From IMG/VR virus record IMGVR_UViG_3300027580_000027, positions 1-22,222 of that record: a DNA stretch of 22,222 nt; one strand, given 5' to 3'. The position numbers were made by a program, and so were the translations under genes. Position 1 is the stretch's first letter; each line of letters begins with the position of its first letter. Source of the stretch: a virus. The notes under the pieces were generated by a model. It saw only the letters and a list, made by a program, of their open reading frames with translations, did not search any database and was not told the origin of the DNA. Shown here piece by piece: positions 1,537 to 15,900 of the stretch.

Positions 1537-3239
1537 ACTGTATCAGCCCGTTGGAACTTCAGCGTGGTTTCCAGCCTGGGCCCGCCATACACGGTGTCTT
1601 TCTGGGTCAGTATGTAGTCCGCTGCAACGCCCAGCTTGTCGAATTGAATCGTCACCGCCTGTCCGGTCCGCAACTGGTGGGCCCGCTTCGACCTGGCCGG
1701 TAAGGTCAGTTCCTTGTCCGGCTCCGCGTTCCTTCCGAGCTTGGCCTGGATTAATTGGTTAACTTCGCTGCTAGTGCGCAAGTTATCCCTGTAGTAGTTG
1801 GACGAGCGGACGCGGTACTTCTCGGCCGATTCTCTGTCTTGTTGCACGGATGACAGGTGGTACTGGAAGTAGGATTTGATCACGGGTTCGCTCCCCGAGT
1901 TTAACCCCAGCAACTGGCCGTCCACCCCGTCCGCTTCGATAATGAGCCAGGGGTCAGGGTCGGGAAGCTTGTGGTCTGGCAGCGTGAACGTAGTGAGGCC
2001 GGCATCCTGTAGGTCGGCTATGTTGACCACCTTCTTGACAATGTCACTGTCCGGGTCCGTTATGGCCGCGGGTGCGCCGCCCTCGTTGCTCTGTATACGA
2101 ATGCGGATGCTGTCGCTCGACGGTGTGGTGTTATTTTGGTCTATCATAATGGTGTCCCGGTCCTTGCTGTTCGGGTCGGCGCCGTCGGATAGCCGCACAT
2201 AGACCGTCTGGAACCCCAGCGAATCGTTGTCGGCCCAATCCCACTCCCCGGCAGCCAGCGATCCGGCTGTTCCCGGCGTCATGGACACTGAATCCTCGTA
2301 AGTATTGTAAGGGCTGGCCAGGCCGGGGTCGCCGCCCCCGTCGGCCTCTACATAATATTCGTTGGTTCCGCTTCCGGAAGCCGTCCACTGCAAGTCAGTA
2401 ATGTCCTTCAATTGCGTCGTCAGTTCAGTCCATACCTGTATTTTGTCAATCGTCGCTTTCCTCATTCGCAATTGGTACAACTTCCGCGTTCCCTCTGTGA
2501 CCCGGAACCAATATTGTTGTGGCGTCGTGTCCTCTTCCAGCTTGGACGAGGTACCGCCTTTGACGCGCACCCTGTTGGTCAAGTCAGCCGAGGAGAAGTT
2601 GACGGTCGGCAGTCCGACATCATCGCTTTGTACAGAAAACGACGTCGAGATACCGTCCAGGGGCTTGAACACGATCGACCGCCCGCGCTGCCCGAGAAAG
2701 GCGTCCGAACGCTGCGCAAGCTCGATCACGAGCTCCAGCAAGTTCGTGCCCTGACAGAAGCGATCCACGGTGACGCCCACCGGCTCAATGAGGCCCTTCT
2801 CAATGGCGGGCGCCTTGCGGTTTATCAGTTCCTGTAACAGCGGCCGCGACCCGCCCGACACGGCGCGGTTCTCGAACTCGTCATATATGTGCCTCATGCT
2901 TAGGATGCCGAACACGAAGTCCGTAACGCTGAAGTCAATGTTCACCCTGGTGGGTGACTGCTGGTTGTAAGTTTCCGGGGTCAGCAGTCCGCGCCAGCGT
3001 TCGGTCAGCGCATCCTCTCCTTCCAGTTGCGTCCGGAAAACGGCCTCGTCGCCGGCGCGTATGAGCTTCGGCCCCTGGGTGTACTTACTGACCGGCGTTG
3101 AAGCGACCGTGATGCTCCCCGTGTCCTTGTAGTTCTGCACCCGCTCTTTGATGTCTATTTCCTGTAGTTCCGCTTGCGGTATGGTGAACGTCCTTCCGTC
3201 CACCGTCTGCACGTTCAATTCGGCATTAGTTACTTTCAT
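1533..3239 (-). CDS. Tail hub/baseplate protein with an inserted beta module
   Basis: This is a 568-residue protein starting at ATG 3239, directly after the tape measure stop. The region around residues 216-229 (SSADLTNRVRVKGG) resembles the beta-barrel signature of gp27/Mu gp44-type tail hub proteins. The C-terminal part (residues 515-565) has the usual hub ending: 'LRTGQAVTIQFDKLGVAADYIL' type strands and ETTLKFQ. Residues 284-369 hold an extra module, with GTNEYYV, GGGDP and DNDSLGFQTVYVRL, that also occurs in the tail tube protein at 8461-9948. The hub closes the tail tube and carries the tip and fibres. No Dit-like gene is evident between it and the tape measure. The hub call rests on position plus these motifs. 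The inserted module makes the protein longer than a bare hub. Confidence 0.65.
   Translation of the reverse strand: MKVTNAELNVQTVDGRTFTIPQAELQEIDIKERVQNYKDTGSITVASTPVSKYTQGPKLIRAGDEAVFRTQLEGEDALTERWRGLLTPETYNQQSPTRVNIDFSVTDFVFGILSMRHIYDEFENRAVSGGSRPLLQELINRKAPAIEKGLIEPVGVTVDRFCQGTNLLELVIELAQRSDAFLGQRGRSIVFKPLDGISTSFSVQSDDVGLPTVNFSSADLTNRVRVKGGTSSKLEEDTTPQQYWFRVTEGTRKLYQLRMRKATIDKIQVWTELTTQLKDITDLQWTASGSGTNEYYVEADGGGDPGLASPYNTYEDSVSMTPGTAGSLAAGEWDWADNDSLGFQTVYVRLSDGADPNSKDRDTIMIDQNNTTPSSDSIRIRIQSNEGGAPAAITDPDSDIVKKVVNIADLQDAGLTTFTLPDHKLPDPDPWLIIEADGVDGQLLGLNSGSEPVIKSYFQYHLSSVQQDRESAEKYRVRSSNYYRDNLRTSSEVNQLIQAKLGRNAEPDKELTLPARSKRAHQLRTGQAVTIQFDKLGVAADYILTQKDTVYGGPRLETTLKFQRADTV
2133..2390 (-). 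repeat. Module copy 1, inserted in the tail hub protein
   Basis: Residues 284-369 of the hub protein. Key positions are WTASGSGTNEYYV, then GGGDP, GSLAAGEW and DNDSLGFQTVYVRL, then a DP pair. By eye about 40 of 85 positions match the copy in the tail tube protein at 8956-9213. The predicted strands suggest an Ig-like or similar beta-sandwich, which is an inference. Confidence 0.8.
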
Positions 3240-6200
3240 TTAGAAGTTAGCACTCTCCAGTTCCTGTTTTAATCCGCGGGCAGCCTGTTTACCCTCTTCC
3301 CGCGACGTGGCTTCTATCGTGATGGGCCCGATTTGTACGTTCTTAGTTCGTCCCACCGCGGCCACGTTGCCACCCGACTCCTTCGAGTTCGGCATGTTGA
3401 GGAAGTCTAGTACCGCGTCCGCGCCCTTTCGTAGGGTGTCGGCCGGTATCACGGCCTCTTGGTTGTGCACAAACCCCGCTAGCTCGTTCTTCGGCCCCGA
3501 ACCCGTCCAGGGCGTACCCGACTGCCAGCTAAAGAAATCCGACAACTTGCCGGGGATGCTGGGCCAGTCAATGCTTGGGGTCAGGTTCTTCCAGTCCAGC
3601 TTGGCTATGATCGATAATCCCTTGTCCACCCACCCCGGAAAGTTCGGCTTCCAGTTACCTATTGCAGCAATCGGCTCGATTTGCGTTTTCCACTTCGGGA
3701 AGTTCGGCAGCCAGCTATCTATTGCAGCGATCGGCTTGACCTCATCCACCCACTTTGGGAAGCCCGGAATCCACTTAGCAATCAGGGCCCTCGGTTCCAG
3801 TTTCTTTGCCCAGGTCGGAAGGTCGGGGTTGGATACCCAATCCGGCAGAATCGTGACGGCCAGCTTCTTCCAGCCTTTCGGGGTCTTCAGTTCGCCGAAG
3901 GTCAGGTTGTTCGCTATGTCGATCGTTCCAATGTTGGAACTTATAGTGTCCGTCAGTCCTTCCACCGTGGTCCACTTGTTCCAGTCAATGCCTTCCATCG
4001 TGCTTTTGATGCTGCTGAACCAATCCGTCATGTCCTCCTTGCTGACGGAAGGCCAGCTATATGAGTAGTTCTTCATTGCCGTGCCCCAGCCCGATTCTAT
4101 GGCGCTGGTGACATCGCCCCAATCCGTGCCCTTCAGTTTGCTGCCGATCTTTTTGACCACGGACTTGACCTTCTCCCCTTTAATTTCCACGTTGCCTAGT
4201 GCACTGCCGATCCCGCTGAACGTCGTCCACTTGTCCCAATTAATGTCCTTCATCGTTTGGCCGATCGACTTTGCCCAGCTTGATATATCCTCTAGCTTAA
4301 TCGACGGCCAGGAATAAGAGAACTGCTTCATGGCGCCGCCCCAGGCCTTCTCTATCGCGGCCCCGATAGCACCGCCCACGTCGTTGTCCCTCATCCAGCC
4401 GATCCAATTTGTCTTGTCCTTTATCTTTTGCCATAAGCCCTTTTCCGGCTCCAGCTTCGTTCCTTTGCCGCCCAGCTTCAGCGTCGTTCCCTCACCGACG
4501 GTGAACGCCTTGCCTTCGGGGTTTGACTCATCCCAGGCCTTCTGGACCTTCTTTTCTAGCTCCGTATCGCTCATGCCGAACGTCACGTCCAGAATTTTCC
4601 CTATTGTGATTACGGCCAGGGCGCCTGTAACCGCGATCGTCCCGCCCGGTATACCAGCAGTTACAGCACCTATCGCTGTTGCTGCCTTCCATACCGCGGC
4701 CCCACCAGCGATAGCACTGACGGTCAGCGCCACCGGGTGTTCGATCCCGGCCTTGGCTAGGTTCTTTATTGGTTCGGTCGATTTAACGGCCGCTGATACG
4801 TCGGCCGTCACGGTCGGATCGATCTTGTTCAGGACCAGCATTGCCAGGGCACTTGGTATTAATATAGAGCCTCCCGGTATGCCGGCCGCTGCAGCCGTCA
4901 ACACGGAACCCGCCTTCCAGATGGCGGCCCCGCCGACCAGTCCAGTAATTGTCATTTTCACCGGCGACTCCAGCCCTTTCTTAGTTAGGTTCTTCACCGG
5001 ATCGCTGGACGTGGCGGCCTTCTTCAGGTCCTTCAGCCACTTGATGGTTACGTCCAGGCTGGCCTGGAATGGTACCTCTTTCTTAATACCTTTCCCTACG
5101 TCAATGGCGTTCTTAATCGACTTCTTCGTGAACTGCACCGTTCCTTGAGCTAGATCGACGTTCCACTCTATCGTGCGGCCAATCCATTCGGCCACTTCCG
5201 AATCCGATCCTTTCAGCAAGTCAACGATCCAATTAATCCGTTTGTTGGCTTCCTTGGCGGCCTCGTTTTTGCCCAGCGCAAAATCCACCGTCCACCCAAT
5301 TACTCGTTCGGCGGCCTTGGTCCAGTTTTCCAACTTATTACCCCAGTCCTTTCGAAGGTCCACACCCCACTGGATCGTGTCCTCCAGGGCCGTCTTTATC
5401 ATCTGCTTTTTCTTGTCCCAATCGGCCTCAACGAAATCAACTATAAAGCTGACCTTCGGGGATGCGTTCGTGATGGCGTTCAGCACGTCCTGCCAGGTGT
5501 TCACCTTCTTGATAAAGTCAACCAGCCCCGATATCGCCGGGTTTATGCCTTCCGAAACGAAGTTCGTCAACGAGGGCAGTAACTTGTCCCCGATCGCCAT
5601 CCAGGCGTTGTTCGCTCGGTTCCTCATAATTTGCATTTTGGTATTGAAGGTGTCCATCTTCGCGTTGTACTCGGCCTGAAGCGATCCGGCCTCGGCCATC
5701 TGGACGTTCGCTTTGTCCAGTAACTTCCGGAAGGAGCCGTAATTGGCCGCTAGCTTCCGGAGCGCCTTGGTGCTTACCTCATTGAATATCATACCCAACT
5801 TCTCTGCTTCGGACCCGCCCTTTTGCATGCTTGTAACTAACTTATTAATAACCTTCAGCGGTGCTTCGTCCCGCATTCGTTCCAACTCGTCCGCGTTCAT
5901 ACCGTAGGCATTGGCTATTTCCTTGATCTTCCGTGGGTCCTGCAGTGACGACGCCAGGCGCCGTAATCGCGTCCCGGCCCGTCGAGCCGAGGATGAAACT
6001 TCTGTTACGGTCGTGTTCAGGGACATAATCTCGGGCACCGTCAGGCCCAACGAGGTCATGGAACCCGCGGATCGTAGCATGGCGTCAGTTATCTCGGAAG
6101 CGGACGCCGCCGCGTTGTTCGATAGTGCATTAATAGCCGCCCCGAGGTTCCTTACCTTCCCAATGGGTGTACCCGTCAACTTAGTGAGCTTCGCGAAGTT

Positions 6201-6617
6201 CTTGGCCGCTTCTTGGGCCATCATGTCGGTCGCAACGGACATCTGGGCCGTAACCTTAGTAAAGTTCTTTATGTTCTTGGGGCCTTCGATTCCCAGACGA
6301 CCGGCCTCTTCCGTTATCAGAGCCAGTTCCTTATGAGCGACGGGCATCTCGGCGGCCATCTCCTTAATGGCGACCCCCATTTTGCGCGCCGTTTCCGGGT
6401 TAGTTACCTTCTCCACGTCGGCCATCTGACTTTCGAACGTGGCCGCCGCACTTACTGCCTTCGCGGCTCCACCAACGACGGCGGCCCCCAAAGCGGCGCT
6501 TAACCCGAGGGCCGCCCCTTTCAGGCTCATCATTGATCCCTGGGCGGACCCCAGCGCGCTGTTCATCCCGCCCGCGTCACCCTGTAATTGGACGCCTAGT
6601 TGCTTAGTTTGCGCCAT
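3240..6617 (-). CDS. Tail tape measure protein (TP901-type)
   Basis: This 1125-residue protein sets tail length and is ejected through the tube. It starts at ATG 6617, overlapping the preceding chaperone frame by 14 bases, with AGGAG just upstream. Residues 1-60 are Ala/Gly/Ser-rich and hydrophobic. Residues 60-350 match the TP901 tape-measure core, with FESQMADVEKV, a MAAEMP/ELALITEEAGRLG stretch and the SLNTTVTEVSSSARRAGTRLRRL helix. The rest is built from four sets of internal repeats (residues 391-489, 541-675, 749-901 and 934-1009). The C-terminus has FVHNQEAVIP, like the conserved end of this family. By the common rule of about 0.15 nm per residue the tail would be near 170 nm. It follows the chaperone pair, as in most siphoviruses. 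Confidence 0.93.
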   Translation of the reverse strand: MAQTKQLGVQLQGDAGGMNSALGSAQGSMMSLKGAALGLSAALGAAVVGGAAKAVSAAATFESQMADVEKVTNPETARKMGVAIKEMAAEMPVAHKELALITEEAGRLGIEGPKNIKNFTKVTAQMSVATDMMAQEAAKNFAKLTKLTGTPIGKVRNLGAAINALSNNAAASASEITDAMLRSAGSMTSLGLTVPEIMSLNTTVTEVSSSARRAGTRLRRLASSLQDPRKIKEIANAYGMNADELERMRDEAPLKVINKLVTSMQKGGSEAEKLGMIFNEVSTKALRKLAANYGSFRKLLDKANVQMAEAGSLQAEYNAKMDTFNTKMQIMRNRANNAWMAIGDKLLPSLTNFVSEGINPAISGLVDFIKKVNTWQDVLNAITNASPKVSFIVDFVEADWDKKKQMIKTALEDTIQWGVDLRKDWGNKLENWTKAAERVIGWTVDFALGKNEAAKEANKRINWIVDLLKGSDSEVAEWIGRTIEWNVDLAQGTVQFTKKSIKNAIDVGKGIKKEVPFQASLDVTIKWLKDLKKAATSSDPVKNLTKKGLESPVKMTITGLVGGAAIWKAGSVLTAAAAGIPGGSILIPSALAMLVLNKIDPTVTADVSAAVKSTEPIKNLAKAGIEHPVALTVSAIAGGAAVWKAATAIGAVTAGIPGGTIAVTGALAVITIGKILDVTFGMSDTELEKKVQKAWDESNPEGKAFTVGEGTTLKLGGKGTKLEPEKGLWQKIKDKTNWIGWMRDNDVGGAIGAAIEKAWGGAMKQFSYSWPSIKLEDISSWAKSIGQTMKDINWDKWTTFSGIGSALGNVEIKGEKVKSVVKKIGSKLKGTDWGDVTSAIESGWGTAMKNYSYSWPSVSKEDMTDWFSSIKSTMEGIDWNKWTTVEGLTDTISSNIGTIDIANNLTFGELKTPKGWKKLAVTILPDWVSNPDLPTWAKKLEPRALIAKWIPGFPKWVDEVKPIAAIDSWLPNFPKWKTQIEPIAAIGNWKPNFPGWVDKGLSIIAKLDWKNLTPSIDWPSIPGKLSDFFSWQSGTPWTGSGPKNELAGFVHNQEAVIPADTLRKGADAVLDFLNMPNSKESGGNVAAVGRTKNVQIGPITIEATSREEGKQAARGLKQELESANF
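3591..3818 (-). repeat. Tape measure repeat set D, four 22-residue copies
   Basis: Residues 934-1009 are four tandem segments of about 22 residues with the core PKW...(K/E)PIAAI..WLPNF. The two middle copies are also close at the nucleotide level (around 3660-3735), so this block may have expanded recently. Confidence 0.85.
3915..4373 (-). repeat. Tape measure repeat set C, two copies of about 65 residues
   Basis: Residues 749-812 and 834-901 share the pattern AIE-WG-AMK followed by YSYSWPS or FSYSWPS, then ED-S-W, then IDWNKWTT or INWDKWTT. The shared aromatic positions and order show an internal duplication. Confidence 0.8.
4593..4997 (-). repeat. Tape measure repeat set B, two 59-residue hydrophobic copies
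   Basis: Residues 541-599 and 617-675 are two copies of equal length, alignable without gaps. Both contain a KNL-K-G-E-PV start, a GGAA-WKA core and an AGIPGG turn, and end in a long hydrophobic helix. This is the only strongly hydrophobic part of the protein outside the N-terminus. It could interact with the host membrane during ejection, which is an inference. Confidence 0.8.
5148..5453 (-). repeat. Tape measure repeat set A (W-x-V-D)
   Basis: Residues 389-490 hold five related segments, spaced about 21-25 residues apart, each centred on a hydrophobic-x-V-D-hydrophobic core: SFIVDF, QWGVDL, GWTVDF, NWIVDL and EWNVDL. Each is followed by a charged helix. The period and the Trp/Asp pairing look like packing repeats along a long alpha-helical rod. 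Confidence 0.75.
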
Positions 6618-6807
6618 CCTCTTTCATCTCCTGTAGCATTTGATAGTCGCCGTCGCGAAGGTTCAGCTCACTATCTTGTTCGTCCCCATGCAGTAAATTC
6701 CATGCCTCCACCAGCGTGCTGATGTCTTGGTCCGTCAGATCGAATACACAATTCTCACCGGGGGTCAGCGTGTAGCCCCACTCGTGGAGAACGCCTACGG
6801 TTTTCAA
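6604..6807 (-). CDS. Tail chaperone T domain (67 aa; possible independent product)
   Basis: This frame of 67 codons begins at TTG 6807. AAAGGAG lies six bases upstream, so ribosomes could start here directly. The same frame is also open upstream to the A AAA AAG slip site, so it may be made only, or also, as the C-terminal part of a chaperone fusion. Residues 15-50 (TPGENCVFDLTDQD, then VEAWNLLHGDEQ) are acidic and helical, like T domains. Its last codons overlap the tape measure start by 14 bases. Which of the two routes dominates cannot be read from the sequence. Confidence 0.65.
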   Translation of the reverse strand: MKTVGVLHEWGYTLTPGENCVFDLTDQDISTLVEAWNLLHGDEQDSELNLRDGDYQMLQEMKEDGAN

Positions 6808-7229
6808 TAGCGACTCCTTTACTTTTTTGAGTCAGGTTCCCCCGCGTCCTCATCTTCTTCTTCATCCTCGTCCTCTTCGTTCCGGACGCCGCCGTACAGC
6901 TCACTGATCGTATCCAGTATTTCTTGTACTACTTTGCTGTCCCAATCCTCGTCCAGCTCGGCTTTCGTCAGGTCGCCTAGGTCCGGTACGACAATTAACT
7001 TCCGGAAGTGCTTTGCTATCTTGTCCGAGTCCACGGCGTCGGCGTCGTCCTCACCGCCGAAGTCATGGAAGAATTCCTTCCCATCGCCCCAGCTCGGTTG
7101 CACTACCTTAATGTTCATGTCCAGCGTGTCCAAGTAAACAGACTTGGGGATTCGCTTTCCGTCCGAACCCCGCTCAACGTGAAAGTCGTTCCGTCCGGCA
7201 GTTTCGGCCTTTTGGTGTTCTTCAGTCAT
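6604..7229 (-). CDS. Tail assembly chaperone fusion made by -1 frameshift (gpGT-like)
   Basis: This is a predicted fusion product of 208 residues. Reading of the upstream chaperone frame (7229 down to the AAG at 6824-6822) would shift by -1 at A AAA AAG (6828-6822), then read V-K-E-S-L and continue without a stop into the 67-codon frame ending at 6604. Tail chaperones in this position, just before the tape measure gene, commonly make a short form and a frameshifted long form, as in lambda gpG and gpGT. The short form binds the tape measure and the long form recruits tube subunits. The slip site, the shift direction and the open downstream frame are seen directly. Use of the shift in vivo is inferred. 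Confidence 0.65.
6819..7229 (-). CDS. Tail assembly chaperone, short form (gpG-like)
   Basis: This 136-residue protein starts at ATG 7229, with AAGGAG nine bases upstream. Residues 20-45 contain VYLDTLDMNIKVVQPSWG, and a predicted helical part follows (residues 70-115). The last 20 residues are almost entirely Asp, Glu, Gly and Lys and end in DSKK. It lies between the tail tube genes and the tape measure gene, where the gpG-type chaperone is expected. The acidic tail is longer than I would expect for the family. It does not enter the mature virion in known systems. The call rests mainly on gene order and the frameshift site at its 3' end. Sequence similarity alone would not be enough. Confidence 0.7.
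   Translation of the reverse strand: MTEEHQKAETAGRNDFHVERGSDGKRIPKSVYLDTLDMNIKVVQPSWGDGKEFFHDFGGEDDADAVDSDKIAKHFRKLIVVPDLGDLTKAELDEDWDSKVVQEILDTISELYGGVRNEEDEDEEEDEDAGEPDSKK
6822..6828 (-). promoter_or_regulatory. Programmed -1 frameshift slippery site A AAA AAG
   Basis: The heptamer A AAA AAG is in the correct phase: TCA AAA AAG then TAA in frame 0. This is the same heptamer as in E. coli dnaX. A Shine-Dalgarno-like GGGGGA lies nine bases upstream (6843-6838), at the spacing known to stimulate -1 shifts. I see no clear downstream hairpin. A stop codon follows the site directly in frame 0. Confidence 0.75.
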
Positions 7230-7247
7230 GCTTAGTCACTCCTTGGT

Positions 7248-8459
7248 TTAGGTTACTGTGATTGATTTTCCGGTAAACTCCGCGTCCACGTTTGCGAATA
7301 CATTACCCTCATCCCTGGCCCGTGAACCGGTATCCGTGATGGTGGCGTTTGTCGCCGTTATCGTGTTCAGGTCCAGGTTCCAAACCAGATCGCCGACGAC
7401 CTTCCGCAGCTGCCGGTCAATGCTGGTGTGGGATGCCTTCTTACCAAACACCGTGGCGGTCGCCGTTATGTCACGGGCGCCGGCCTCTAGGACCTCACCC
7501 AGGCGCTCGGTGGCACCCTGGCTGTCCACGTTGTTTGCGATTTCCAGCTCAAAGCTGTTGATCCTTTCTGCAATACTCTGTGTGTTGAAGTTGATGACGT
7601 TGCTTAGGAAGCGCTGTTCGGTGCCCCCGTGCTCTGTCACCCGAGAACCCGACGAAGGAACAACTGGTATACCCTTGTCGCCTTCCACGTTCCAGTACGT
7701 CACGGCGCCTAGTACCTTGAACACCGTGTTCCCGGTCCCCGTCATGCTGAAGGTTAGGTCGCCGTCGAACGTTCCCAGCACCTCGATCTCATATATCTCC
7801 GAGAACGAGTTGCTGGTGGTAGCAGCACTGGAACTCACTGTCACGGTCTCCGTAAGCGGTGACCCCCCGGATAACCCGCGGATTTTGATGTCGCCGTTTT
7901 CGCCCGATACGTTGGACGCTATGTCGATCGTGTCCGCTGTACCCGGCTGGTCGAGGATGTAAGTCCTGACCTTCGGCGCCATGTACTCCAGTTCGATCCC
8001 CACCGGGGAATTAGCCGCTGGGTCGCCTGAAAAGACCAGTGAATTCGGTACGCAATGCCGTGCTACCGAGTATATGTGTCGGCCCGCTCCGGCGACGCCC
8101 TCACCGGCGTGCACTTCCCGAAGCACTACCGTCCTTCGCTCCAGGGCGTTGTTTGTCGTCCGGACTATGGCTTCGAGTACCGGTTCAGCGTTGACATTGC
8201 CGCCGCCCACGTCGGCGGCCGCTATGGCGCCCTGTAAGTTGTACCCCATCGAAAATGAGTGGGTTTCCTGTCCTCTGTCAAACTTCTGCTGATCCACGGA
8301 ACCAACGCCCCGCCGCGGGTTAATCGGTACGTCCGGCGTCCAGTCAATCGAATCCACGACGTCCGCGAATGGGATGTAATGGGCGTCAGCCGGGATATCT
8401 CCGTCCACCTCTTGTATACTTTCCAGTCTTTGATCGCGTAATGCGCTCTCATTTACCAT
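7248..8459 (-). CDS. Tail tube protein 2 (major tail protein paralogue, short form)
   Basis: This is a 403-residue protein from ATG 8459, with GAGGTGA six bases upstream inside the end of the previous gene. It is clearly paralogous to the 8461-9948 protein. Shared features are MVNESALRDQR at the start, the RRGVGSVDQQKFDRGQETHSF-type region around residue 48, the SLVFSGDPAANSPVGIELEYM region, and GSRARDEGNVFAN near the end. Between about residues 235 and 262 it has a short linker where the paralogue carries an inserted module. The many short beta strands and the site before the chaperones fit a tail tube subunit. Codon choices differ widely from the paralogue, so the duplication is not recent. 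Confidence 0.75.
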   Translation of the reverse strand: MVNESALRDQRLESIQEVDGDIPADAHYIPFADVVDSIDWTPDVPINPRRGVGSVDQQKFDRGQETHSFSMGYNLQGAIAAADVGGGNVNAEPVLEAIVRTTNNALERRTVVLREVHAGEGVAGAGRHIYSVARHCVPNSLVFSGDPAANSPVGIELEYMAPKVRTYILDQPGTADTIDIASNVSGENGDIKIRGLSGGSPLTETVTVSSSAATTSNSFSEIYEIEVLGTFDGDLTFSMTGTGNTVFKVLGAVTYWNVEGDKGIPVVPSSGSRVTEHGGTEQRFLSNVINFNTQSIAERINSFELEIANNVDSQGATERLGEVLEAGARDITATATVFGKKASHTSIDRQLRKVVGDLVWNLDLNTITATNATITDTGSRARDEGNVFANVDAEFTGKSITVT

Positions 8460-8460
8460 A

Positions 8461-9948
8461 TTAGCTCACCTCTATGGTCTTACCAGTAAACTCTACGTCT
8501 TGATTCGCAAAAACGTTCCCTTCATCACGGGCTCGGCTGCCTGGGTCCGTAATGATCGCGTTCCGGGCCGTCAACGTGCTGTCCGTCAGGTTCCAAACTA
8601 TGTCGGCTATCAGGCCCTGCAGCGCGGCGTCAATATTGTCGTGGCTTGTGGTGCGGCCAAACACGGTGGAAGTTATCACAATGTCGCGGCCGCCCGCTCC
8701 TAGGTCTTCCCCAAGTGAATTCAGGAAGGCTTGTGAGTCAATGTTATTTGATACCTCTAGCTCCAACGAATTAATTTTGTCGGCCAGTGTCGGGCCGCCC
8801 CACGTCACGGTGTTATTTAAGAAACGCTGCTCCGCACCGGCGTGGTCCGTTCGCCTGTCCCCGCTTATCGGGAGAACCGGAATTCCTAGGTCGCTCTCTA
8901 TTCCCTCGTAGCTTTCGCTTCCCCACATCCGGAACAGGATCGGGTTCAGGTGGTAGTTGTTTGTGATCGCCAGGCCATCGTCGGCCAAGGTGTCAGGGTC
9001 CGAGTCGTCGTCCAGCCGGACGTACAGCGTACTGAAGCCCAAACTGTCGTTATCGCCCCAGCCCCAGGTACCCGCTGATAGCGAACCCGGCGTTTCCTCG
9101 GTGTCCGCGATCTTCGACCCCGTAACGCTTCCGGGCTGGTTTAGGTCCGGGTTTCCCCCGCCTGGCAGCGTGACGTAATACTCACCGGTGCCAGAACCCG
9201 ATAGCGTCCACTCGTAGTCAACAATGGGGTTGTGCATCCGTCGCTTGGCCGTCAGGTCGCCGGTGTGTTCGGCCTCGGCCCGCAGCGCGTACAGTTCTTG
9301 CCAGACCGTGGTTGTTTCCGTGTCGCCGGAGATTGTCACGGTTTCCCGGACGTCGCTGCCCGCGCCATCCATCCCGCGGATCGTCACGTCCAACGATTCC
9401 GCGTTTTCCGGTATCAGCATTAACGTTCCGTCAAACTCGGGCTGGTCCAGCAGATAGGTCCTAGTCCGCGGCGTCATATACTCCAGCTCGACACCGACCG
9501 GTGAATTCGCGGCCGGGTCCCCGGACAGTACCAGGCTGTTCGGCGCCGCATGTCGTGCCACTGAAATTAGTTCCCGCTTCGTTCCCCGCGGGCTGCCACC
9601 CTGGTGCAGTTCCCGCTGTATCACCGTTCGCCGCACTAGTTCGTTGTTGGCATCCCTAACCAGGGCGTCGTAGACCGGCCCCGCGTTTACCAACGACGCG
9701 GTGGCTCGGGCAATCACACCCTGAAGGTCGTACCCCAACGAGAAGGTGTGCGTCTCCGTCCCTCGGTCGAACTTCCGAAGGTCCACGGTTCCGATCCCCC
9801 GGCGCGTCGTGATGTTGATGTCAGGGGTCCAGTCCAGCGACCCCACCACGTCCGCGAAGGGTAGAAAGTCGGCATCGCTCGGTATGGCGCCGTCCTCCTC
9901 AATGATGTGCTCCACTCGTTGATCTCGTAGTGCTGATTCGTTAACCAT
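8461..9948 (-). CDS. Tail tube protein 1 (major tail protein with inserted module)
   Basis: This is a 495-residue protein from ATG 9948, with GAGGAG six bases upstream. It is collinear with the 403-residue protein downstream, except for an insertion at residues 246-331. Outside the insertion, both share the N-terminal 85 residues (FADVVGSLDWTPDINI, KFDRGTETHTF, GYDLQGVIA), the SLVLSGDPAANSPVGVELEYM region and the C-terminal SRARDEGNVFAN block. The insertion is related to one in the tail hub protein at 1533-3239. A tail tube role is inferred from position after the tail terminator and before the chaperones. A sheath is less likely because the two genes are paralogues. The extra module may project from the tube surface. 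Confidence 0.75.
   Translation of the reverse strand: MVNESALRDQRVEHIIEEDGAIPSDADFLPFADVVGSLDWTPDINITTRRGIGTVDLRKFDRGTETHTFSLGYDLQGVIARATASLVNAGPVYDALVRDANNELVRRTVIQRELHQGGSPRGTKRELISVARHAAPNSLVLSGDPAANSPVGVELEYMTPRTRTYLLDQPEFDGTLMLIPENAESLDVTIRGMDGAGSDVRETVTISGDTETTTVWQELYALRAEAEHTGDLTAKRRMHNPIVDYEWTLSGSGTGEYYVTLPGGGNPDLNQPGSVTGSKIADTEETPGSLSAGTWGWGDNDSLGFSTLYVRLDDDSDPDTLADDGLAITNNYHLNPILFRMWGSESYEGIESDLGIPVLPISGDRRTDHAGAEQRFLNNTVTWGGPTLADKINSLELEVSNNIDSQAFLNSLGEDLGAGGRDIVITSTVFGRTTSHDNIDAALQGLIADIVWNLTDSTLTARNAIITDPGSRARDEGNVFANQDVEFTGKTIEVS
8956..9213 (-). repeat. Module copy 2, inserted in tail tube protein 1
   Basis: Residues 246-331 of the protein encoded at 8461-9948. Key positions are WTLSGSGTGEYYV, GGGNP, GSLSAGTWGWGDNDSLGF and TLYVRL, then a DP pair. 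This matches the hub copy at 2133-2390 in the order and spacing of these blocks. It is absent from tail tube protein 2, so it is an insertion relative to the paralogue. Confidence 0.85.
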
Positions 9949-13691: not shown

Positions 13692-14927
13692 ACTGTCACC
13701 CCTAAAGGTGTTAATTATGCGCTGCACCAAATTCTGCCTGTTCTCTTCGTATTCCACGTCAAACTCCTCCTCCAGTAAACTCCTAGCCGTTTCGGCCGCC
13801 CGGTCGTACACGTCGGACGGTATGTCTGCCTGGGAACCGCGGCCACCGCGAACCGACACCAGGGCGTTCTTGTACAGCACCCCGTTTCCGTCGATCACCT
13901 GGAAGAACGTCAGGCCTTCCCAGGTCGTGGCTTCCACGGACCCTAACAAACTGGACTCCGCGGCTTCGGTTTGCTGGGCGTCCGTCAGGTCCGCGACGCT
14001 ATCAATCTCGTCCCAGCCCTTTTCCCCCGCGAATTCGCCTAACGATCGGCGACTCCAGGATCCTTCGGTAGTGTCGCTGTACGCCGGCGTCCGCGCAGTT
14101 TCCCTAATATCCTGTAGCTCGGTTTTGTCGAAGTCCACTCCGACCCCCTGTACGTTGGACAATGGTACTCCAACACCGTCCGGCAGCGAAAGCTCACCGG
14201 TCTGATCCGGCAGCACTGCCAGGTGGTCCGGCTTGATGTTTACCTGTACCCCGTCGTAGAACTTGCCATTGTACTCCCCGCTCTCGTCCAGCGTGTCGTG
14301 CCAGTAGCTCGTCGAAACGTCCATCGTTTCGCCGGCTTTCAGGCGGCGGTAGGTTTCCCAAAGCTCCTGTGACTTGGCCGAGTTCTCCGTACGGGCCGAT
14401 ATTGCCTTCTCCTCGTCCACCCAAATCTCGCCCTTCAGCTTATTGTCCTCGAAGTGGACGTTGTAGAAGCGCCCGAGCGAGCGTTGATCCACCAGCTTCC
14501 GATCCCGTGCCGAGGCCCCACGTGGGTGCGACACCGGCGTGGGCGTGTCGTCCCAAAGCTGGGACGTCCGTTTGATTTCCTGACCCGGAAGCAGCTGGCC
14601 CTTCACCACGGCCTCTCGTAGCGCAACCACTGGTATAACCAGGTGGTCCCGGCCGTTGTGCTTGTCGGGCCGGATGTCTTCCGGCGTCGGCTGAACCTGA
14701 ACTTTTGCCAGCATCTTCTTGTTTCCGCGTTCCATGTTGGCCTCCAACTCCACTTGGTCGTAGTTCGCGTTTGCCACCCGTATCGCTCGGGGAGCACAAA
14801 GCTCGTCATCGTCGTGCTCCTCCATGCAATCCTCATAAACCTTGTTTGCCATCTTCACCCACTGACGCTTCTCCCGGTCCGTCAGGCCGCCCACGAACTC
14901 GTCCACGTCGTCAACGGTCCAAGGCAT
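13170..14927 (-). CDS. Prohead protease (DUF2213-type) fused to an acidic scaffold tail
   Basis: This 585-residue protein matures the prohead and may guide capsid assembly. The chosen start is ATG 14927, which overlaps the previous stop (TGATG) with GGGAGG five bases upstream. A frame six codons longer (ATG 14945) has a poorer site. Residues 10-57 resemble a ChaB-like helix pair, ending APRAIRVANANY. Residues 78-245 fit DUF2213: VIPVVALREAVV, PVSHPRGAS, FYNVHFEDNKLKGEIWVD, DVSTSYW, then IKPDHLAVLP. The His of SHP, the Ser in DVSTS and the DH pair are candidate catalytic residues. Next comes an ARTPAYSD...W/SLLG domain found in related phage proteins. The last 170 residues are acidic, with a run of Glu/Asp around residues 448-480, and could be made separately as a scaffold. 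Confidence 0.8.
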   Translation of the reverse strand: MPWTVDDVDEFVGGLTDREKRQWVKMANKVYEDCMEEHDDDELCAPRAIRVANANYDQVELEANMERGNKKMLAKVQVQPTPEDIRPDKHNGRDHLVIPVVALREAVVKGQLLPGQEIKRTSQLWDDTPTPVSHPRGASARDRKLVDQRSLGRFYNVHFEDNKLKGEIWVDEEKAISARTENSAKSQELWETYRRLKAGETMDVSTSYWHDTLDESGEYNGKFYDGVQVNIKPDHLAVLPDQTGELSLPDGVGVPLSNVQGVGVDFDKTELQDIRETARTPAYSDTTEGSWSRRSLGEFAGEKGWDEIDSVADLTDAQQTEAAESSLLGSVEATTWEGLTFFQVIDGNGVLYKNALVSVRGGRGSQADIPSDVYDRAAETARSLLEEEFDVEYEENRQNLVQRIINTFRGDSMEKEELVQTLLDRGVDIPEGDLLDTKQTMLEAMEEATAEEDEEEEDETVDAESDTGGPEGEEDDVTDETKTDNSGLAALSDEGDLRELIQGAVREEMNRSEKLSLVDKLDNSKQVDFSRDELEDMPKSALEKVENRVTPSTNYGAAGSMTQGEGPTEVELVNSRKILTAEEGD

Positions 14928-15439
14928 CAGCGCCTCCCATTCCATTGTAAAATCAGCGTGGCCGCCACCGGCCGGTCAAAGATGTCGTCATTCGCGAAGA
15001 TAATGTCCGTCGAATCGGTGTAATACTCCAGCTCCAGCACGTCGCCGGGCTCCAGCGCTGCAGTCCCGCTATAGGGCAAATCCTGTTCGGCGCCCGAGGC
15101 CATCGGCCCGTCGTATTGTCGCTGTGAGCAGCGGGCCTCCGTCGTTCCGTTTATCCGGATGCGGCCCAGGAACTTCTTGTCATCGGCCGCCGGAAGCGGT
15201 TTAGTGCTGGTGTTCCTGGCGTGGATGCATCCCGTAAACTCGTACAACCCGGCGCGCGTCACCTGAACCTGTTGTCCGTCAGCCCGGAGGAACGCGTGGT
15301 GGGACGTAGTTTCTTCTTCGACGAGCGTGAGCCCGTCGAACGACGTCCAAGCGCCCACTGCCCGACTGGCTAGGTCGGGCGTTCTGTGCACCTTCAAGCT
15401 CTTTGCCCAGCGTCCGTTATGCGGACGCCAAATTCCCAT
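14927..15439 (-). CDS. Possible jelly-roll head fibre/decoration protein
   Basis: This is a 170-residue protein from ATG 15439, overlapping the prior stop in a TAATG junction with AGGAGG seven bases upstream. It begins MGIWRPHNGRW, a motif also found at the start of the next gene upstream. The remainder has the strand pattern of C1q/TNF-like or similar jelly-rolls: TRAGLYEFTGCIHARN, a short RIRINGTTEARC strand pair, AALEPGDVLELEYYTDS and LILQWNGRR at the end. Such folds in phages occur in receptor-binding and decoration proteins. Located between the minor head protein and the protease, it is more likely attached to the capsid than the tail. The role is inferred, and no exact family is recognised. 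Confidence 0.55.
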   Translation of the reverse strand: MGIWRPHNGRWAKSLKVHRTPDLASRAVGAWTSFDGLTLVEEETTSHHAFLRADGQQVQVTRAGLYEFTGCIHARNTSTKPLPAADDKKFLGRIRINGTTEARCSQRQYDGPMASGAEQDLPYSGTAALEPGDVLELEYYTDSTDIIFANDDIFDRPVAATLILQWNGRR

Positions 15440-15900
15440 TATTGAACCTCCTCACCGATCACCAGGTTCGGGTACTTCGCCGCCGTAGCGTTCGAGCCCG
15501 GCGATTCCTTCCAGCGGAAAACCAAAAACTGCTCCTCTGTCTCGTCCGTAACGTCCAAACTTACCCGCGGGAAGTCCGTGACCTGTTCGCCGGTTCCTGT
15601 GATGCCTGCAACCTCGGCCAGCGACACGTTGTTTAGCTGATCGTATAGCTGCAAGTCCACCGTCTCGTCCGTTCCGGGGTCCACCGTTAATGCCGCGGCC
15701 ACCTGTAGGTGCCCGAGCTTCAGGCCCAGGGCGCCCGGCGTGAACTTGGCAACGAAGAACTGCCAGTCCCAGGCGTACGACGTCGCGGTAAAATTCGAGT
15801 AAGCCTTCGCCTGTGCTCCTATGCTCATTAGTGGGTAGAAGTCACCGTGTATGTAACCCCGCGACTTCCAGCCGCTTCTGTGAGGGGACCAAATGCTCAT
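15439..15900 (-). CDS. Beta-rich protein with MxIWxPH N-terminus, unknown
   Basis: This is a 153-residue protein from ATG 15900, three bases after the previous stop. The ribosome binding site (AAGGCGG) is modest. It starts MSIWSPHRSGW, matching the N-terminus of the next gene downstream (MGIWRPHNGRW) in M-x-I-W-x-P-H. The rest is strand-rich: YAWDWQFFVAKFTPG, HLQVAAALTVDPG, ETVDLQLYDQLNN, and RVSLDV with FLVFRWKES. I do not recognise a named family. A beta-sandwich head decoration or fibre subunit is the best guess from composition and from the position in a four-gene cassette. Confidence 0.55.
   Translation of the reverse strand: MSIWSPHRSGWKSRGYIHGDFYPLMSIGAQAKAYSNFTATSYAWDWQFFVAKFTPGALGLKLGHLQVAAALTVDPGTDETVDLQLYDQLNNVSLAEVAGITGTGEQVTDFPRVSLDVTDETEEQFLVFRWKESPGSNATAAKYPNLVIGEEVQ

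Follow-up and report, generated by a model that had tools for sequence, protein, structure and literature searches.

The window, by which we mean the whole stretch of DNA analysed (22,222 nucleotides, positions 1 to 22,222 of IMG/VR virus record IMGVR_UViG_3300027580_000027), carries on its minus strand two tail tube genes, a tape measure gene and the gene of a putative tail hub protein (Table 1). The tube, tape measure, capsid, neck and maturation proteins of the window match those of the haloarchaeal tailed viruses Hardycor1 and HATV-3, and it is thus very probable that the DNA belongs to a virus of halophilic archaea. In case of tube1, the homologues are HrrHc1_105 of Hardycor1 and gp29 of HATV-3; tube queries composed of two sequences gave no relatives, and these were found once the haloarchaeal homologues had joined the query. 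An AF2 model of tube1 built on 16 rows has a confident core, and a Foldseek search of the PDB assigns this model the tail tube fold, the best matches being the SH-Ab15497 major tail protein, the T5 tail tube/tip and the P74-26 tail tube (probability 1.00, E 1e-5 to 9e-4). Judged from its model, tube1 is a T5-type duplicated tail tube protein and tube2 its plain paralogue. The two genes lie in tandem (7248-9948), one product decorated and the other plain; the relatives L195-L197 exhibit a single tube gene within 4 kb on each side (less at contig ends). The putative hub takes its name from the position of its gene downstream of the tape measure gene together with a non-significant match to the PHROG 'tail protein' family phrog_400 (E 0.06); it has no homologue in INPHARED and no annotated homologue. 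Of the host names proposed in an earlier note on this DNA, 'tube' therefore stands, on fold and gene position, whereas 'hub' is used here in a putative sense. Just downstream of the hub gene (1004-1536) are two small paralogues, 1004-1321 and 1318-1536, which are 38% identical over 103 columns and differ in an internal gap. Between the head genes, two adjacent proteins of 153-170 aa (14927-15900) appear by eye to be jelly-roll type decoration proteins; the one that was checked, the product of 14927-15439, gave no Pfam match.

Table 1. Genes and inserted segments discussed in the text (coordinates within the window).
Feature	Coordinates	Strand	Remarks
tube1, major tail tube protein, 495 aa	8461..9948	-	T5 pb6-like duplicated tube fold; module carrier
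tube2, module-free tube paralogue, 403 aa	7248..8459	-	56% identical to tube1 on either flank of the insert
putative tail hub protein, 568 aa	1533..3239	-	module carrier; position after tape measure gene; homologues L211 and L212 in IMG/VR
tape measure protein (context)	3240..6617	-	PhageMin_Tail PF10145 E 1.6e-20; phrog_28 E 3e-55; Hardycor1 Tmp E 2e-82
whole insert in tube1, about residues 235-337	8938..9246	-	module-free homologues have a short beta-turn here
whole insert in hub, about residues 273-377	2109..2423	-	about 9 residues (KQAEDGKMG) in homologues
module copy in tube1, residues 246-331	8956..9213	-	44/86 identical to hub copy; family profile A2
module copy in hub, residues 284-369	2133..2390	-	44/86 identical to tube1 copy

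The putative hub and tube1 have one segment in common, hereafter called the module, whose two copies align without a single gap (identities in Table 1). Among the window's own proteins, blastp reports 51% identity between hub and tube1 over 90 aa (E about 2e-23), and the raw score of the module pair is 235 as against 34 +/- 7 for 5,000 shuffles, the shuffle maximum being 68 (z = 30). This bears out the similarity that the earlier note had put by eye at about 40 of 85 positions, and the coordinates and other sequence facts it gave are likewise correct: hub and tube1 have nothing in common beyond the module, as expected for the otherwise unrelated proteins it had described, and the second tube paralogue does lack the module while matching tube1 on both flanks. 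Comparison of the two 258-nt module segments with blastn gave zero alignment, so that the copies are without similarity at the DNA level, and no third copy was found within the window.

The insertion site in the tube was read from an alignment with tube2 and 14 IMG/VR homologues. The module-free IMG/VR sequences and tube2 align across the entire tube, and their strands on either side of the site are linked by a beta-turn (typically DGSGT). Confident host strands (residues 232-236 and 337-341) flank the insert in the tube1 model, whereas the module between them is modelled at low confidence because a single row covers it. In case of the hub, homologues on two IMG/VR contigs cover residues 21-272 and 378-567 in two matches that lie about 27 nt apart, and the empty site thus comprises about nine residues in the context VQIWLHKQ-AEDGKMG-VRIQ. 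These empty sites identify both insertion points in the window as short turns between host strands, and their closed state in module-free relatives indicates that the module is plugged in between host strands rather than belonging to the host core. The same lead-in, SLV/SIR-N/S-A-x-Y-K-W-T (about eight residues), is seen in hosts that are otherwise unrelated, from which we take the true unit to be about 85-92 residues long. Tube1, tube2 and the L195/L197 lineage fall together in a single clade, and tube1 is its sole member with the module. This is most simply read as a gain in tube1, with the proviso that tree counts cannot separate gain from loss. The two halves of the tube fold in tube1 are also separated by a middle domain (8938-9450, about residues 166-337, TETV-LNGTT...TGDVTV) that looks like an older insertion, in which case the module would be nested inside another inserted domain.

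Structure prediction for the module family (AF2, 39 relatives) returned a compact, mostly beta domain of six strands with a pLDDT of 90.9 and a pTM of 0.83. The module is therefore predicted to fold on its own, and it forms a separate unit outside the confident tube core, not the part of the host core that would have counted against the reading of the earlier note. Neither copy has a Pfam match at E <= 10 and the consensus has none; PHROGs, PDB sequences, INPHARED, PLSDB and 50,697 phage records likewise yielded no significant match to the module. Matches to PDB sequences of ankyrin repeats and capsid proteins were rejected, since only a short acidic stretch was matched, and gp9 of Streptomyces phage FlowerPower was set aside as a relative at E 0.2. 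At the level of fold, the Foldseek search of the PDB gave no confident match for the module (best E 0.63), Ig domains being listed only at E about 1 with TM values of 0.2-0.3. The top fold match in BFVD is a phage protein named xylosidase (probability 0.99, TMq 0.58, E 0.03). The module corresponds to no recognised carbohydrate-binding family.

Pattern scans of IMG/VR recovered 32 relatives in the first round and 109 in the second, so that at least 109 contigs carry the module; from 122 loci we collected 91 modules in 82 distinct ORFs. When the module is masked, the host proteins fall into about 25 groups with no detectable mutual similarity. Annotated hosts comprise nozzle proteins (phrog_376), DUF2460, phrog_394 and phrog_396 proteins, the central tail fibre J, tail fibres, beta-helix/pectate-lyase tailspikes and structural proteins of phrog_511 and phrog_399, along with minor tail and connector-like proteins. 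Insertion within a conserved domain is seen in the DUF2460 match, which is split by the module, and the phrog_394 and phrog_376 alignments continue across it. Within the nozzle family, the module is found at several separated sites, at times with two or three copies per protein; most contigs exhibit a single copy, and placing the same surface at many positions of one virion is thus not a general design. The transferable cassette suggested in the earlier note is strongly supported by these data, with about 25 unrelated hosts, several sites per family and closed empty sites, and its presence in at least two dozen further kinds of tail protein of uncultured viruses gives the module the look of a surface attachment that can be moved from protein to protein. 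Its insertion and independent folding are shown by the combination of homology, empty sites and structure models, and we regard it as almost certain that the module is an insertable plug-in display domain. Two apparent relationships were rejected: Cluster 0 is not wholly composed of nozzle proteins, as L080, L086, L088, L089 and L034 have no phrog_376 match, and where hub residues 201-283 seem to resemble L018, a DUF2460 protein, the alignment is merely noise that gap extension has added ahead of the module. Further observations concern single loci. The nozzle proteins L009 and L013 contain repeated PF16190 (E1_FCCH) domains, another recurring small beta module; at L154 (genome G270) a divergent module is found in each of two different ORFs, 979 and 961 aa long, that lie within about 6 kb; and the Verrucomicrobia MAG contig JAJFLO010000569.1 (L035, L126, L129) has an open frame of 8,765 aa with two tandem modules. 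In the Verrucomicrobiota genome G478 (L189), a 167-aa protein exhibits a shortened module, WTEDSGEYW...GTVGSLAAGEWGFADGKIYVKDD, which is possibly an intermediate form and for which no further relatives were found in phages or IMG/VR.

Comparison of module copies in different host families reveals a nucleotide identity of 69% at best, with a median of 53%, and hence no sign of recent DNA transposition. Where dN/dS could be measured, close pairs that share the insertion site gave values of 0.10-0.17, and the two observations combined indicate an old, constrained protein domain. In-frame insertion at many sites of many unrelated genes would also be expected of a selfish or neutral DNA element tolerated as protein, for which Rickettsia palindromic elements provide an analogy. 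We disfavour this explanation as very improbable: the copies in the window lack DNA similarity, those in different host families do not exceed 69% nucleotide identity, the dN/dS values speak for constraint, and the known hosts are nearly all virion or surface proteins instead of random genes. A separate question is whether the hub and tube copies are independent captures or one was copied from the other inside this virus lineage. The presence of both in one genome would fit copying, and an AU test does not reject a clade of hub and tube modules (p 0.257), for which reason we dropped the claim that the captures are certainly independent. We nonetheless consider copying rather unlikely, as a quick tree assigns each copy to a supported group of its own, together with modules from other viruses, the best tree that forces them together is 30 log-units worse, the pair is saturated at synonymous sites, and each copy is more similar to a module elsewhere (67% and 59% identity) than the two are to each other (51%).

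Cellular relatives were found with the A2 profile, which contains no known cellular beta-helix member: proteins from a Woesearchaeota genome (E 5.6e-9 and 2.5e-7) and one from a genome of the Desulfovibrio phylum (E 5.3e-8), with the slightly wider A6 profile adding another protein in the phylum of the Woesearchaeota (E 3e-10). The A2 searches constitute the independent evidence, whilst an hhalign comparison of A2 with the beta-helix set (E 6e-25) is partly circular, because this set was picked by the same profiles. These four cellular relatives (L149, L151, L152 and L192) are Beta_helix PF13229 or NosD-like proteins in which the module interrupts the helix after its first coils. The profile matches show that, in archaea as well as bacteria, the nearest cellular relatives of the module break up the beta-helix of extracellular proteins. 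L151 and L152, both from a Woesearchaeota MAG, are very large beta-helix proteins, L151 also containing a CBM_6/CBM_35 domain. An arrangement of this kind is known from GH120 xylosidase, where an Ig-like beta-sandwich interrupts the beta-helix and contributes to forming and organising the active site (PMC6887791). The likeness to this GH120 insertion domain (PF21258; TsXylC, PDB 3VST) includes, in the cellular relatives, the position in the right-handed beta-helix and the motif order (W..., a 'VxxDG' block, a W-strand, 'TxYxR' and DPN) and, for the module itself, the 'xylosidase' fold match in BFVD given above; in L151, one beta-helix contains what by eye is a GH120-type insert and the next a module-like insert at the same place. 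In contrast, the tube and hub of the window are not beta-helix proteins and lack the GH120-type trait of a domain interrupting such a helix after the first coils. The PF21258 (GH120_ins) HMM matches neither the module copies nor the consensus, hhalign between module and GH120_ins is non-significant (E 0.27 with A4, otherwise 0.3-0.56), and 3VST is absent from the best 50 PDB fold matches listed for the module. As the direct profile comparison is non-significant, we do not claim membership in GH120_ins and see only an analogy of place and, probably, of fold.

What the module does on a virion can be approached from these observations. We conclude that viruses of bacteria and archaea have put a self-contained beta domain of about 85-92 residues into turns and loops of their tail proteins, where it would project from the tube, hub, nozzle, spike or fibre with the host fold left undisturbed. 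Acting as an accessory adhesion domain, many copies along a tail could weakly bind glycans or glycoproteins of the host surface or matrix, and this weak multiple binding would hold the virion near its receptor. In the virus of the window, the module would line the tail as part of tube1, perhaps thinned out by undecorated tube2 subunits, and would sit at the tail tip as part of the hub; the common surface of tube and tip for host or polysaccharide contact, offered as speculation in the earlier note, may be understood in this way by analogy. Adhesion is inferred from parallels: Ig-like domains of tail tubes have been proposed to bind carbohydrates weakly (PMC8718954), carbohydrate-binding module (CBM) inserts in evolved Dit proteins bind cells (PMC9128512), and the module has kin in carbohydrate-type beta-helix proteins. 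On these grounds an adhesive function seems slightly favoured, and the explanation as a whole, a plug-in domain working as an accessory adhesion domain, is in our view reasonably probable. The main rival is a structural role, in which the module would serve as a clamp: through extra contacts from one subunit to the next it would make the tail more stable, for instance at high salt, and it would bind nothing outside. Such a role is known for the inserted beta-sandwich domain 2 of the YSD1 tube, which stabilises the ring (PMC8718954), and the frequent occurrence of the module in tube, hub and nozzle proteins would agree with it; however, the same conserved sequence is found in about 25 unrelated hosts with different neighbours, its sites vary within one family, close relatives do without it, and it also occurs in beta-helix proteins outside virions. 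The variety of hosts and sites and the module-free relatives imply that the virion offers the module no single, shared partner surface, and we consider the clamp unlikely. The adhesive reading can be extended to an uncatalogued, promiscuous adhesion domain derived from or shared with extracellular beta-helix enzymes, with the pair of plain and decorated tube proteins setting the adhesive density; this appears conceivable, albeit somewhat less likely than not. If tube1 and tube2 co-assemble, decorated and plain subunits would be mixed by way of gene duplication, although tube2 may alternatively be a tip ring protein like T5 p140.

With the module, the portable decorations known from tails gain an entire domain family. 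Tailed viruses of archaea and of bacteria make use of one and the same plug-in, and this plug-in is linked to a domain that extracellular beta-helix proteins possess. The turn-insertion sites, for which clean empty alleles exist, reveal the places at which a tail protein can accommodate a folded insert; structural work stands to benefit, as does the annotation of many proteins now labelled 'hypothetical'. As one domain can be assayed for many viruses, what tail decorations bind becomes directly testable. Promiscuous tail decorations and domain mosaicism are already known kinds of phenomenon; the databases and papers searched gave no description of the module family, of its internal mode of turn insertion, of its occurrence in viruses of archaea as well as bacteria or of its relatives among beta-helix proteins. 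Mosaicism of phage protein domains, with fragments common to otherwise unrelated tail proteins, is a general phenomenon (PMC10684548); the module stands apart in that PHROGs, Pfam and the genomes of cultured phages all lack it and that it extends to viruses of both archaea and bacteria. The BACON domains of crAss-like phages (PMC6949934) are also putatively glycan-binding beta domains that are modular in phage structural proteins; the module differs in having no Pfam BACON match and in occurring mostly as single copies and not in tandem arrays. Evolved Dit proteins resemble the module's hosts in that a domain lies inside a tail protein with conserved N and C ends (PMC9128512), yet their inserts bind host polysaccharide whereas binding by the module is putative, the module is unrelated to them by Pfam, and its range of host proteins is far wider. 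There is also a likeness to the Ig-like decorations (Big_1, Big_2, I-set, FN3), which phages have on their capsid proteins and, in the tail, on tube, fibre and baseplate proteins (PMC9022992, PMC8718954): in both cases a small beta domain is found on the tail, in functionally unrelated virion proteins (here about 25 host groups), and is dispensable in relatives. Unlike these, the module matches no Ig family of Pfam, has no confident Ig fold match and is inserted internally and not fused to the C-terminus. The arrangement of the tube genes finally recalls SPP1, in which plain and decorated tube subunits are mixed; there the two kinds arise through a frameshift, here they come from two genes.
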